This document shows positions 1 through 33,988 of a stretch of DNA of 34,004 nucleotides, piece by piece. Position numbers and translations under genes: made by a program. Origin of the DNA: an uncultured Gammaproteobacteria bacterium (GTDB lineage: Bacteria; Pseudomonadota; Gammaproteobacteria; GCA-001735895); contig CALJYH010000046.1 in assembly GCA_937984095.1 (NCBI GenBank), positions 1 to 34,004 on the forward strand. Direction: 5' to 3'. Numbering within the stretch: the stretch's first letter is position 1; every line of letters begins with the position of its first letter. Below the pieces are notes generated by a model. That model made no database searches, had not been told where the DNA came from, and saw only the letters and a program-made list of their open reading frames with translations.

Positions 1-71
1 CTCCTAATGTTTAAACAATCTTAAGGCCAAGGCTACCGATTTTACGGGCAGAGTATCTTTACTAACGCTAT

Positions 72-206
72 CCCGGGGGAATGCCCGCAAAAGACGCTCC
101 CAACCGGCGCAAGCGCCGGTTGGTCCATCCATGGAATCGCTTGGAGCCCGATGCGTCGGACCGCGGCGTCCTGCCTCGCTACACTTTTGCAGGCATTCCC
201 CCGGGG
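72..206 (+). repeat. Palindromic interspersed element, type 1 copy A (MITE/REP-like), with terminal inverted arms
   Basis: Left arm CCCGGGGGAATGCCCGCAAAAG (72-93) pairs with right arm CTTTTGCAGGCATTCCCCCGGGG (184-206), about 21/22. Internal perfect hairpin CCAACCGGCGC-AA-GCGCCGGTTGG (100-123). The core recurs inverted at 33861-33967. Confidence 0.8.
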
Positions 207-222
207 TAGCTTGAGCCAGAGA

Positions 223-478: not shown

Positions 479-847
479 TTATTCGGCGTAGAAGGCGTTT
501 TTGATCCAGTTGAAATCGCTGGTGCCGACGGATTGCTGCTGGATCAGCAGTGCGTCAAAACGCAGCGCATGATGGGCGAGACGCTTATTTGCCGCGAGGT
601 AGAAGAGGGCGGTCTTGATGATTTTACGTTGCTTGCTGCGGGGAATCGCACCCGCGGCACCACCAAAGACTAACGACTTGCGAAATTTTACCTCGATGAA
701 ACAGACGGAATCACGATCACGCATGATTAAATCGATTTCGCCAAACCGGCAGCGGTAATTGGACTGTATCAACAGCAGACCGCGCTCTAGCAGGTAGTCC
801 CTGGCCCGATCTTCAAAACGCAATCCTTTGCGAAGACTGATATTCAT
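479..847 (-). CDS. yraN: YraN family (UPF0102) endonuclease-like protein
   Basis: Protein MNISLRKGLRFEDRARDYLLERGL...NYRCRFGEIDLIMRDRDSVCFIEVKFRKS has the UPF0102/YraN signature (GEIDLI, FIEVK). Located directly after lpoA. Start chosen at the internal ATG that avoids overlap with lpoA. Confidence 0.9.
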   Translation of the reverse strand: MNISLRKGLRFEDRARDYLLERGLLLIQSNYRCRFGEIDLIMRDRDSVCFIEVKFRKSLVFGGAAGAIPRSKQRKIIKTALFYLAANKRLAHHALRFDALLIQQQSVGTSDFNWIKNAFYAE

Positions 848-851
848 CGAA

Positions 852-2786
852 TTATGGAGGTAGTCCCGGGACCAGGCTCTGGGTGTCTGGAGCTTCCAGT
901 AACTTGGCTCGACCTTTTTCATAGGTTGCCATCATCAGCGATCGTTTCACCCGGCCGTTTTTATCAACTGATAGCTTACCGGTGTTATGCGGCAGTGATT
1001 CTTCTGGATTAATCATTAGCCGGCGCAGCGATGGAATCATCCGATAAGCATCGATCCCGAGCGCAAACAGGCGACTGAAGCGTTGGCTTTCATCGGGCCA
1101 GAGGCGACTGATTTGCCTGTGGTCGGGATTATCGCGGTTGTCTAGCATCCACGGAATGTCGACGAAAAGGATTTCATCGAGATCGCGATCATCGTCCGGA
1201 TTAGCGTTACTGGAAGAAATATGAGATGTCGAGTATACGGGCAAATCCTGCGCATGGTGGAACTTGAGTTGCGGTTTGATCAGCCTGGCCTGTCTCGAGT
1301 TGCCGGCGATAAATATCATATCGACGTCCTGTCGGCGGCGCGCATCGAATTTGACCTGTTCCTTGATCACTTGCTGCAAAATGCTTTTACGGTGGTTGCT
1401 GGTAGTCAGGTTGAGCAGGTTTTTAATTTCCGCCGAATAGTCGTTCTTTTTCGCCGGGTAAATGGTATTGCCGACCACGTGCCCGCCTAGCGACTCGAAG
1501 CGTTTACTAAATGCGCGCTGGAGTCGATAGCCCCACTCGGTGTCGGGTACCAGGACAAGCGCGTGATGCCTGTCCTGGGCTAATGCGTAGTCCGCAATCT
1601 GTACGGCTTCGTCTTCGGGGCGTAGTCCGAACTGGTAAAGATTTAACCGGGTTTCATTCTGGTCGTTGCCGTAGTTCAAGGTTAAGGTTGGAACCTCTAG
1701 CTGTTCACGTTGTTGCAGCAGGTCGATCAGGTCCTTGTCGATCGGCCCAACAATAAAATCGGCACCATTCTGGATCGCCTGCTCGTATTGCAGGTTAAAT
1801 TCTGCGGGGTCGGTGCTGGCATTGATAATCTCCAGGTTGGCAACCTGCTCGGGATCCTGGTAATAAGCATACAGAAAACCATTCTGGATCGCGTCTGCAA
1901 CCTTTTCGAGGCGCCCGGAAAAAGGCAACATCAGCGTAATGTGCGTTGGATTAATGTAAATACGCTTGCTTTCTTCGAGCAGGTTGATTGCGTAGTTCGG
2001 TGCCGCGGAGTGATCACCATAAAGCTGATACCATTGGTTGATCCAGGGCTCCATTTTTACGGGGAGCATATTCGAACGGCGCGTTATCAGGTTTAACTCC
2101 AGCCAACCGCGCACCTCGCTGGTTTGTTGTTCGGCCAGCGCCCGGATCATTGCAGGTTCGGAAATGCGGTTGAGCGCATCCCAGATAAAGTCATGATTTG
2201 CCTCAATTTCCTGTGGTGTTTGTAAAAACTGGCTGATTTGCATCCGCAATTTAGCGCTTTCCAGGGGTTTGCCGATCGCAAGCACCCCGCGCGCGCGAAT
2301 CCTGAGTGCGAGGGTCTTGTAACGGTAATCAATGATCTCTTCGATCTCTGGCAGCGCCAGCAGGCTCTGGTAAATCTTGCCTTCACCCAGGTAACCTCCC
2401 GCCCGGATTGTCTCCCGGTATTTCAGGTCCAGCTCTATGATGTCCTGCTCACCGAGTTGATCGAAATAAGGATCAATTTCTTCGTAGAGCTCTCCTTCGT
2501 AATACATCAGGGCGACCTTGAGTAGATATGCGGAGCGCTCCGGTTGAGTGCTGGATTGTGCAAGCCTGTCGTACAACACCGCGGCTTCCAGCCACTGCTT
2601 GTCAACCTCGTAGTGAAAGGCGCGGATTATGTCTTCTTCGGTTGGCGTTAAAATCTCGCTCGCAGCATCCGGATCTGTGGGTAATGTCGTCCCGCTGCCA
2701 TCCGAACCAAATTGGCGGCCTGATTCACAAGCGCCAAGTCCCAGGCTCAGTGCCAGCAAAAACAGGATTGAACGAGTCGGTCTCAT
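852..2786 (-). CDS. lpoA: Penicillin-binding protein activator LpoA (LppC family lipoprotein)
   Basis: Lipoprotein signal MRPTRSILFLLALSLGLGAC; C-terminal periplasmic-binding-like domain (ITLMLPFSGRLEKVADAIQNGFLYAYY). Neighbours yraN and divergent rsmI. The upstream 84 aa of the ORF overlap rsmI and are probably not translated. Confidence 0.9.
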   Translation of the reverse strand: MRPTRSILFLLALSLGLGACESGRQFGSDGSGTTLPTDPDAASEILTPTEEDIIRAFHYEVDKQWLEAAVLYDRLAQSSTQPERSAYLLKVALMYYEGELYEEIDPYFDQLGEQDIIELDLKYRETIRAGGYLGEGKIYQSLLALPEIEEIIDYRYKTLALRIRARGVLAIGKPLESAKLRMQISQFLQTPQEIEANHDFIWDALNRISEPAMIRALAEQQTSEVRGWLELNLITRRSNMLPVKMEPWINQWYQLYGDHSAAPNYAINLLEESKRIYINPTHITLMLPFSGRLEKVADAIQNGFLYAYYQDPEQVANLEIINASTDPAEFNLQYEQAIQNGADFIVGPIDKDLIDLLQQREQLEVPTLTLNYGNDQNETRLNLYQFGLRPEDEAVQIADYALAQDRHHALVLVPDTEWGYRLQRAFSKRFESLGGHVVGNTIYPAKKNDYSAEIKNLLNLTTSNHRKSILQQVIKEQVKFDARRRQDVDMIFIAGNSRQARLIKPQLKFHHAQDLPVYSTSHISSSNANPDDDRDLDEILFVDIPWMLDNRDNPDHRQISRLWPDESQRFSRLFALGIDAYRMIPSLRRLMINPEESLPHNTGKLSVDKNGRVKRSLMMATYEKGRAKLLEAPDTQSLVPGLPP

Positions 2787-11325: not shown

Positions 11326-11499
11326 ACTTCAGCACACTACCGCCTGGAACAAAACCCCTGCCAATGTATCCGTAATCAGGTTTTTTGTTGATCTCGGTAA
11401 TGTGTTCTCGCGGCGGTCCGATCTGCCACCACAACGCAATACTTGTTTTAAGTGTCATGCGGGTGGCGTCCTGTTGTTAACATGGTAATATTGCCGCCA

Positions 11500-11836
11500 A
11501 GTCAGCTGGATAATCGCTGGTTCGTGGTACGAGCTGGAGGAAAGTCCGGGCTCCGCAGGGCAGAGTGCCAGATAACGTCTGGGGGGCGTAAGCCCACGGC
11601 CAGTGCAACAGAAAGTACACCGCCAGCCTCGGCTGGTAAGGGTGAAATGGTGCGGTAAGAGCGCACCGCGCTTCTGGTAACAGAAGTGGCAAGGTAAACC
11701 CCACTCGGAGCAAGACCAAATAGGAAAACGATGACGCGGCCCGCGTCGTTTTCGGGTTGGTCGCTTGAGGCTGGAAGGCGACTTTCGGTCCAGATGAATG
11801 ATTATCCTCGACAGAACCCGGCTTACAGGCTGACTA
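11500..11836 (+). ncRNA. rnpB: RNase P RNA (bacterial class A)
   Basis: Conserved blocks GAGGAAAGTCCGGGCTCC, GGGTGAAATGGTGCGGTAAGAGCGCACCGCGC, GGCAAGGTAAACCCCA, AGCAAGACCAAATAGG and ACAGAACCCGGCTTACAGGC. The ends AGTCAGC and GCTGACT can pair as P1. Ends approximate. Confidence 0.97.
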
Positions 11837-11846
11837 TCTATTTTGA

Positions 11847-30846: not shown

Positions 30847-33615
30847 TTATATTGCCGCTATCCTCTCAGCTTGTGCGCGCAGGCTCCCAAGCGCCGACTC
30901 GGTGTCTGCGAGCTTACTCTTTTCCTTGTTGACCACGTCTTTTGGTGCACGCGAGATAAAGTTTTCATTCGCGAGCTTTGCGCTGATACGTTGCGCATCC
31001 TGTTCCAGCTTTTCGATATTCCTTTGCAGGCGCAGGAGTTCAGAGTTTTTATCGATGAGTCCGGCGAGTGGAATCAAAAGTTGCATTTCTCCTACGAGCG
31101 AAATGGCGGATTCCGGAGCCTGGGCATCTTGCTCCAGCCAGTCAATGGATTCCAGCTTTGCCAACGACATCAGAAGTGAGCGATTGGCTTCGATGTTTTG
31201 GCGATCCTGCTCATCTCCATTCCGGCAGATTACCGGTAATAGCTTGCCTGGTTTTATGTCCATTTCGGAGCGGATTTGACGCACCCCCATGACAAATGTC
31301 TTTACCCATTCCAGTTCAACCAGCGCCGCGTTGTCAATCAGTGCCGGGTTGGCCTCGGGGTAGGGGCGGCGCATTATTGTTTCGCCCTCGATCCACGCCA
31401 GCGGTGCGACACGTTGCCAGAGCTCTTCGGTGATATAGGGCATGATCGGGTGTAACAACCGCAGTATTGATTCGAGTACTGTAACCAGTGTATGTCGGGC
31501 CGCTTTTTTCGCTGCAACCGGGTAATCATCTGTATAAAGTACCGGTTTAGATAGTTCGATGTACCAGTCGCAATAGTCGTTCCAGACAAATTCATAGAGA
31601 TCGCGGGCTACCAGATCGAAGCGATAATTATCGATATGCCTGGCGACATCCCCGCTTACCTGCTGCAGGCGCGAGATGATCCAGCGGTCTGATAACGTCG
31701 AGGTGCCCGCGGTACAGTCCTCGCCCTCGGTATTCTGCATTACGTAGCGCGTCGCGTTCCATAACTTGTTGCAGAAATTGCGGTAGCCCTCGATGCGACC
31801 CAGGTCAAAGCGAATGTCCCGCCCGGTGGTTGCGAGCGCGGTGAAGGTAAAGCGCAATGCGTCGGTGCCATAGGCTGGAATGCCGTCGGGGAAATGCCTC
31901 CGCGTCGCGGCCTCGATCTTCGGCGCCATCTCTGGCTGCATCAGTCCGGTAGTGCGCTTGGTTAGCAGGTCATCGAGTGAAATGCCATCGATCAGGTCCA
32001 GCGGGTCGAGTACGTTGCCCTTGGACTTTGACATTTTATTGCCATCGGCGTCGCGCACCAGCCCGTGAATATAGACTTCCCTGAAAGGCACCTCATCCAT
32101 GAACTTGAGTCCGAACATGATCATGCGCGCGACCCAGAAGAAAATAATATCGAAGCCGGTGACGAGTACGCTGGTTGGGTAAAAAGTCTGTAGTGCCGGA
32201 TCTTTGCGGTCGGGCCAGCCAAGTGTACTGAATGGCCACAGTGCCGATGAAAACCAGGTGTCGAGTACGTCTTCGTCCTGGGTAAGTTCGACATCTTCGG
32301 CGAGTCCATATTTGCTGCGTACCGCGTCGATATCGGCGGCGACATAAATATTACCGTAGTTGTCATACCAGGCAGGGATCCGATGACCCCACCAGAGTTG
32401 GCGTGATATACACCAGTCCTGGATATCTTCCATCCAGTTGTAATAGGTTTTGCTCCAGTTTTCGGGAATGAAACGGATGCGGCCGTCTTTTACGGCTTTG
32501 ATGGAAGGCTGCGCGAGCGGTTCGGCTCGAACGAACCACTGATCGGTCAGGTAAGGCTCGATGACGACACCAGAGCGATCACCATAAGGGCGCTTGTAAA
32601 CATGGTCTTCGGCCTTGACCAGCAGTTCCGCGGTGTCGAGATCCTTGACGATTTTGTCGCGGGCCTCGAAGCGATCCATTCCCTGGTAAGCCGGGGGTGC
32701 GTTCTCATTCATGATCGCATCGATCGTGAACAGGTTGATCACTTCCATTTCGTGACGCTGCCCGACCTCGTAATCGTTGAAGTCATGCGCGGGTGTGATC
32801 TTGACGCAGCCGGTACCAAATTCGGGATCCACGTAATCGTCGGTAATAATCGGGATAATACGGGGTGTCAGCGGTACTTGAACCTGTCGGCCAATAAAGT
32901 CCCGGTAACGATCATCGTCCGGATTCACCGCCAGGGCTCCGTCCGCGAGTATAGTTTCCGGCCGGGTGGTGGCGATTTCAAGATGCGTGACTCCGTTGAC
33001 GGGACCATCGATGAGGGGGTACCTGACATGGTAGAGAAATCCTTTTTCTTCCTCGTTGATGACTTCCAGATCAGAAATCGCGGTATGCAGCACCGGGTCC
33101 CAGTTCACCAGGCGCTTGCCCCGGTATATCAGGTCTTCTTCGTAAAGCTTGATAAAAACTTCCTGCACCGCGGCCGATAGTCCATCATCCATGGTGAAGC
33201 GTTCGCGCGCCCAGTCGGGTGACGTGCCCATGCGTCGCAACTGGCGCGTAATTGTGCCACCGGATTCCGCTTTCCATTTCCACACGCGATCGGTGAATGC
33301 GTCGCGGCCCAGGTCATGCCGGGTCTTGCTCTCCTGGGCTAATTGCCGTTCGACCACCATTTGCGTCGCAATTCCGGCGTGATCCGTACCCGGTTGCCAC
33401 AGCGTATTATCACCCTTCATACGGTGATAGCGGATCAGGGTGTCCATGATCGTGTCCTGGAACGCGTGACCCATATGCAGGCTGCCGGTCACGTTCGGTG
33501 GCGGGATCACGATACAGTATGGGTCGCCGTCTCCGTCGGCAGCGAAGTAGCCCTGATCTTCCCATCGCTGGTACCAGGTTTCCTCGATTGAATGTGGATC
33601 GTAGGTTTTTTCCAT
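30847..33615 (-). CDS. valS: Valyl-tRNA synthetase
   Basis: [40 protein letters not shown] (HIGH); [22 protein letters not shown] (KMSKS); C-terminal coiled-coil. The ORF extends to 33636. Confidence 0.97.
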
Positions 33616-33714
33616 CAACTCGGTGGCGCAAATCAAAGGCCGCGATTATACCGTGCCCCCCTTCAAAAATGCACTGTTTCTATATGCGTTCGGACCTGGA
33701 GATAATCCCAGCAA

Positions 33715-33827
33715 GGGTGCGGGCGTTGGTATTTCTTTTCAGAATCGCCGTGTATACATCCATGTAGGCTCGCGCGCGACATCCCTGTCGCGCAGCGTTC
33801 TGAAAAGAAATACCAACGCCCACACCC
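33715..33827. repeat. Palindromic element, copy C, with 30-nt inverted arms
   Basis: GGGCGTTGGTATTTCTTTTCAGAA (33721-33744) is the exact reverse complement of 33798-33821 (24/24). The arms extend outward to 33715 and 33827 with one mismatch. The interior carries TACATCCATGTA and CGCGCGACATCCCTGTCGCGC hairpins. Confidence 0.8.
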
Positions 33828-33838
33828 GGAAATCAATC

Positions 33839-33988
33839 GGCACCTCGGGGGGGGTGGCTCCGCAAAAGTGTAGCGAGGCATGGATGTCGCGGTCCGACGC
33901 ATCGGGCTCCAAGCGATTCCATGGATGGACCAACCGGCGCTTGCGCCGGTTGGGAGCGGCTTTTGCGGAACTACCCCCTCGAGGTGCC
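33839..33988 (-). repeat. Palindromic interspersed element, type 1 copy D (inverted copy of A)
   Basis: Arms GGCACCTCGGGGGGGGTGGCTCCGCAAAAG (33839-33868) and CTTTTGCGGAACTACCCCCTCGAGGTGCC (33960-33988). The reverse complement of the core matches 87-190 with only a few differences by eye. Confidence 0.82.

Follow-up and report, generated by a model that had tools for sequence, protein, structure and literature searches.

To our knowledge, no function has been assigned to the RNA family TwoAYGGAY, an orphan since 2010. Integron attC sites, in which the sequence varies, the fold is conserved and one strand is used, are a further system with which a structured repeat can be compared. For TwoAYGGAY, tandem G.A pairs have been reported, poor conservation of the outer stem has been noted, and binding by CsrA has been proposed (PMC4333381). 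REPINs undergo compensatory changes and have conserved outer ends around a variable inside (PMC3116915), and REP sequences show a preference for convergent genes (PMC1525189). Here, a palindromic element, type 1, is described that shares features with each of these systems.

The window, a stretch of 34,004 nucleotides, is the complete contig C46 of a gammaproteobacterial MAG (G000, 63% complete). It holds two long-core copies of type 1, A and D, each with a head-to-head partner of another type (Table 1), as well as a bacterial RNase P RNA of class A (11498-11841). Copies A and D had been described in the first-pass annotation as inverted and almost identical in the core, with arms that pair within each copy. 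This stands, since positions 75-171 and 33882-33978 are 93% complementary and the two cores are 96% identical; both copies also fold far better than shuffled sequences (z values of -6.7 and -8.5). The spans had to be corrected to those in Table 1. The full stem of copy A pairs 67-93 with 184-210 and reaches 27 bp when AAAAG/CTTTT is counted. The core, formerly called nearly invariant, is indeed conserved but exists in two forms, of ~104 nt (copies A and D) and ~90 nt. The form differs inside 9 of the 24 ortholog groups, which were defined by flanks, through the mini-hairpin CCGATGCGTCGGACCG (15-16 nt; 147-162 in the window), present or absent at the same spot of orthologous type 1 cores. This mini-hairpin was also seen within type 2 elements, in either direction (L053, L128), and in flanking DNA, with L097 and L010 as further loci at which it was noted, and the type 3 cores of L063 and L135 carry a different short insertion, ACGGCACTCCGGG, at about the same spot, where other type 3 cores have none.

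Table 1 Structured elements in the window and their coordinates.
Feature	Positions	Strand	Remarks
Type 1 copy A, long core	67-210	minus	ATGGAT (functional) strand
Copy A left arm	67-88		variable, 22 nt
Copy A conserved core	89-188	minus	between AAAAG and CTTTT; three minus-strand hairpins, two with GGA loops
Copy A right arm	189-210		variable, 22 nt
Type 2, head-to-head partner of copy A	216-424	plus	Rfam RF01731 (TwoAYGGAY) match at 255-377, 50.6 bits, cut-off 43
Type 3, head-to-head partner of copy D	33715-33827	minus	ATGGAT strand
Type 1 copy D, long core, inverted	33839-33988	plus	ATGGAT strand

Like TwoAYGGAY, type 1 has a pair of hairpins whose terminal loops, on the one strand, read AYGGAY (columns 31-52 and 62-73 in an alignment of 50 copies, the first loop being one base shorter in some copies), tandem G.A pairs in a stem, and an external stem that pairs without conservation of its sequence. 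The tandem pairs lie in the first hairpin, with GA/GA in 55 copies alternating with G-C/C-G (GC/GC) in 32. Unlike TwoAYGGAY, type 1 has a third hairpin, occurs in 20-35 copies per genome and is frequently paired head-to-head with types 2 and 3. Its score against RF01731 also sets it apart, the best values (40.9 and 40.1 bits, obtained on the expected strand at 2 of 18 loci) being under the gathering cut-off of 43, whereas type 2 elements reach 50.6-60.6 bits. With several GGA hairpin loops per RNA, and with CsrA genes in G000 and most of its relatives, type 1 further resembles the CsrA-sequestering RNAs of the CsrB/RsmZ kind. It differs from them in consisting of many short dispersed copies instead of one sRNA gene and in having CsrA as a candidate binder only, and no conserved promoter was seen in its variable arms. 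The combination of variable sequence, conserved fold and one strand is shared with integron attC sites, from which type 1 is distinguished in that, as judged without an attC model, no cassette array or attC core sites were recognised.

In G000, a search with the core found 22 matches corresponding to ~20 distinct copies, and several sister species carry roughly 20-35 copies each. Matches to the short core were obtained in 12 of the 31 genomes belonging to the genus and in none of 10 from other genera of the order, and the long core had no match in 26 genomes outside the genus. Taken jointly with the mechanism proposed below, type 1 is probably a dispersed, genus-specific, structured RNA-like element related to the TwoAYGGAY family. 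In a genome of another family of the same class (G044), 21 TwoAYGGAY-like matches are spread across many contigs, indicating that repeated TwoAYGGAY-like elements are not confined to this genus.

To characterize the arms, 138 full type 1 copies were gathered. The arms had been regarded as specific to each copy, and their letters do vary at every position, with all four Watson-Crick pairs found at each arm pair position; however, their length is almost constant (22 nt plus AAAAG/CTTTT), and a weak consensus, GCYAYCYCGGG...GCAAAAG, with GCYAYCYCGGG at the outer end, is common to them. As also claimed at the first pass, the left and right arms pair within each copy (89.5%, compared with 51% for arms exchanged between copies and 23-32% for slid arms), which is far beyond chance. 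Covariation was analysed in 50 copies chosen for good pairing and a short core, a pre-selection that raises the paired fraction artificially but leaves the count of pair types unaffected. Double changes were present at 35 of the 51 predicted pairs, and the cells with double changes numbered 380, against 78 in shuffles and 48-75 in slid alignments.

Changes in place were then compared in 35 ortholog pairs, which are not independent, some loci being counted several times. These contained 93 double changes from one Watson-Crick pair to another, against 79 single-sided changes; 46 changes were to minus-strand G.U, 9 to plus-strand G.U and 23 to mismatches. Ortholog divergence was 11.6% in the arms, compared with 8.3% for the left flank and 3.9% for the core. 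The arms therefore diverge at least as fast as the flanks, and transversions make up 20 of 46 ortholog double changes, more than the share expected from a path through G.U alone. Both observations count against the explanation that we favour.

Wobble pairs reveal which strand is constrained. Read as GCAAAAG...CTTTTGC, the type 1 arms contain 95 A.C and 20 G.T pairs, and 18 positions are biased in this direction against 1 in the other. Since each A.C read in this way corresponds to G.U on the opposite, ATGGAT-loop strand, G.U is tolerated on the ATGGAT strand and not on the other. On their own ATGGAT strands, type 3 elements (46 copies) have 62 G.T and 2 A.C pairs and type 2 elements (30 copies) 13 and 1. 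Moreover, the U.G, G-C and U.G pairs below the outer stem of type 1 are nearly invariant on the ATGGAT strand, and according to RNA folding energies the ATGGAT strand is the more stable one in 111 of 124 copies of type 1 and in 33 of 34 of type 3. RNA would be the most natural reading of the folded ATGGAT strand. Selection on the folded structure, one of two explanations offered at the first pass, is well supported for this strand by the covariation, the double changes in place between orthologs and the strand-specific wobble. The accompanying view that compensatory arms would be uncommon was too strong, as such changes are reported in REPINs (PMC3116915). The wobble bias of type 1 is unaffected by the direction of the flanking genes (16:2 for ++ and 10:1 for --), and read-through from these genes was therefore rejected as its source; that plain read-through from neighbour genes does not explain the bias also counts against the favoured explanation.

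Among the 115 type 1 copies whose flanks were long enough, 57 are accompanied on the right by a type 2 or type 3 element, head-to-head in 56 cases, and just 2 by one on the left. Most type 1 elements with a type 3 partner are separated from it by 11-16 nt. Within linked pairs, A.C exceeds G.T by 36 to 8 in type 1, and G.T exceeds A.C by 46 to 0 in the type 3 partners, showing that the neighbours are constrained on opposite strands. Such a constraint would not be produced by one mobilised strand carrying the whole pair, but could arise from separately mobile units.

With ORFs called mechanically, 53 of 99 type 1 copies were located between convergent genes and 1 of 99 between divergent genes, compared with 15 and 34, respectively, of 128 further neighbouring ORF pairs from these stretches. 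The copies occupy the 3' ends of genes, in most cases of convergent pairs, a preference that may simply reflect sites where insertions are harmless. Copy A is flanked by convergent genes, one on the overlapping contig C27 and the other a UPF0102 gene (479-922, minus strand). Positions 1-141 form an exact 141-base overlap with C27, from the same genome, indicating that the assembly broke inside the repeat; the ORFs on C27 next to copy A look, by their sequences, like SspA and SspB. Copy D is situated 5' of the valyl-tRNA synthetase gene (valS; 30847-33636, minus strand) and is, as far as the contig shows, an exception to this placement.

Searches with joined flanks and single flanks identified six loci that lack the element in a relative. 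The element-less orthologs of L237 and L259 are deletions beginning inside the left arm, and the remaining ones are unalignable or hold other DNA. Neither arms without a core nor a clean empty site at which a target-site duplication could be read was found at the six loci. Type 1 resembles MITEs in being short and multi-copy with long inverted repeats at its ends; unlike MITEs with fixed terminal inverted repeats, it has repeats that differ between copies, and no autonomous partner was found for it. At the site upstream of valS (33639-33715 in the window; L044, L046), the genomes G030 and G002 have a pair of type 1 and type 3 in reverse orientation, with other arms and starting near the same base. 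At the L102 locus, too, type 1 stands in the opposite orientation with different arms in sister species, so that sites are reused. Arm-to-arm conversion was considered for the L054/L033/L026 locus and rejected. The mismatched arms of L026 (G030) join a left side like that of G002 to a right side like that of G008, with the switch within the conserved core; on alignment L026 thus looks recombinant, and its arms are no evidence for conversion.

In the explanation that we consider probable as a whole, type 1 is a genus-specific relative of TwoAYGGAY whose ATGGAT strand would fold into a 30-bp outer stem, 22 bp of which need only to pair, closing a three-hairpin junction with GGA in two of the loops. 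The outer stem would drift via compensatory change because only its pairing is selected, and the core would be conserved because something, most probably a CsrA/RsmA-type protein, reads its sequence. Copies would derive from past dispersal, be mostly inherited in place at present, and survive at gene 3' ends, often head-to-head with type 2 or 3, giving one functional hairpin per strand. Beyond the observed covariation, strand choice, head-to-head pairing and convergent-gene placement, CsrA or another protein may bind the folded strand, the case for CsrA resting on the GGA loops and on a match to the published motif (PMC4333381), and the element may serve as a decoy or 3'-end module. More tentatively, the elements could together constitute a distributed regulatory RNA, in which dozens of head-to-head hairpin pairs at convergent gene ends, each with one selected GGA-loop hairpin per strand, jointly titrate CsrA or mark 3' ends and spread without conserved ends.

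The convergent placement, and the arrangement of a head-to-head pair, which in both directions ends with one stable own-strand hairpin, would also suit a mechanical 3'-end signal, such as a bidirectional terminator or a 3'-exonuclease barrier for convergent genes, with incidental GGA loops. We regard this as rather unlikely, because a barrier could do without a conserved core that has tandem G.A pairs and two GGA loops, the transcribed strand is not preferred in tandem gene contexts, and no T-run follows the stem in the type 1 copies read.

Less likely again is a single-stranded DNA mobile element of the REPIN or IS200-IS605 kind, whose folded strand would be recognised by a Y1 transposase and whose hairpins would be selected at transposition. 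Type 1 is multi-copy, intergenic and palindromic, 27 of the 31 genomes in the genus have Y1 transposase genes, and REPINs are known to undergo compensatory change (PMC3116915). Nevertheless, covariation of the arms is seen between orthologs that have kept their locus, type-1-rich genomes have 0-2 Y1 genes, and no type 1-3 element adjoins any of the 8 Y1 loci inspected. Y1/RAYT was accordingly rejected as the mobiliser, being in the genus but neither next to the elements nor numerous where type 1 is. The linked head-to-head hairpins constrained on opposite strands also argue against such mobility, subject to the reservation made above for separate units. Overall, type 1 is similar to REPINs and BIMEs (REP doublets) as a short intergenic palindrome with compensatory changes, head-to-head units and a convergent-gene preference (PMC3116915, PMC1525189), and differs from them in its opposite-strand constraint and in its variable outer ends and conserved inside, the reverse of the conserved ends of REP. 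REPINs are also associated with RAYT genes, an association not found for type 1 at the Y1 loci inspected.

Mutational homogenisation, by which palindrome-templated DNA correction (quasipalindrome template switching) would keep the arms complementary with no selection on the fold, appears improbable. It would accord with arms evolving faster than flanks, with the transversions among the double changes and with the excess of Watson-Crick double changes over single-sided ones, and such correction may still supply the double mutations. DNA correction, however, would not be expected to tolerate G.T on just one strand, to do this on opposite strands of two hairpins separated by 11-16 nt, or to preserve U.G and tandem G.A pairs. 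Finally, the other first-pass explanation, by which the core enters the loop of a hairpin that already existed, for example a terminator, is very improbable: the core is more conserved than the arms and its long or short type can differ among orthologs, but the arms have a near-fixed 22-nt length and a shared end consensus and keep changing in place, and at the six element-less loci deletions or unalignable DNA were found in place of the predicted uninterrupted hairpin with the same arms and no core.

The favoured explanation, a protein-read core within a freely drifting stem, concerns relatives of TwoAYGGAY that are repeated dozens of times per genome and so provide dozens of natural test cases. 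Because there are many copies per genome, the wobble asymmetry can be counted and reveals the folded strand without experiment. The opposite-strand constraint in head-to-head pairs limits mobility models for palindromic repeats, and the wobble count is applicable to REP, BIME and similar repeats of other genomes.
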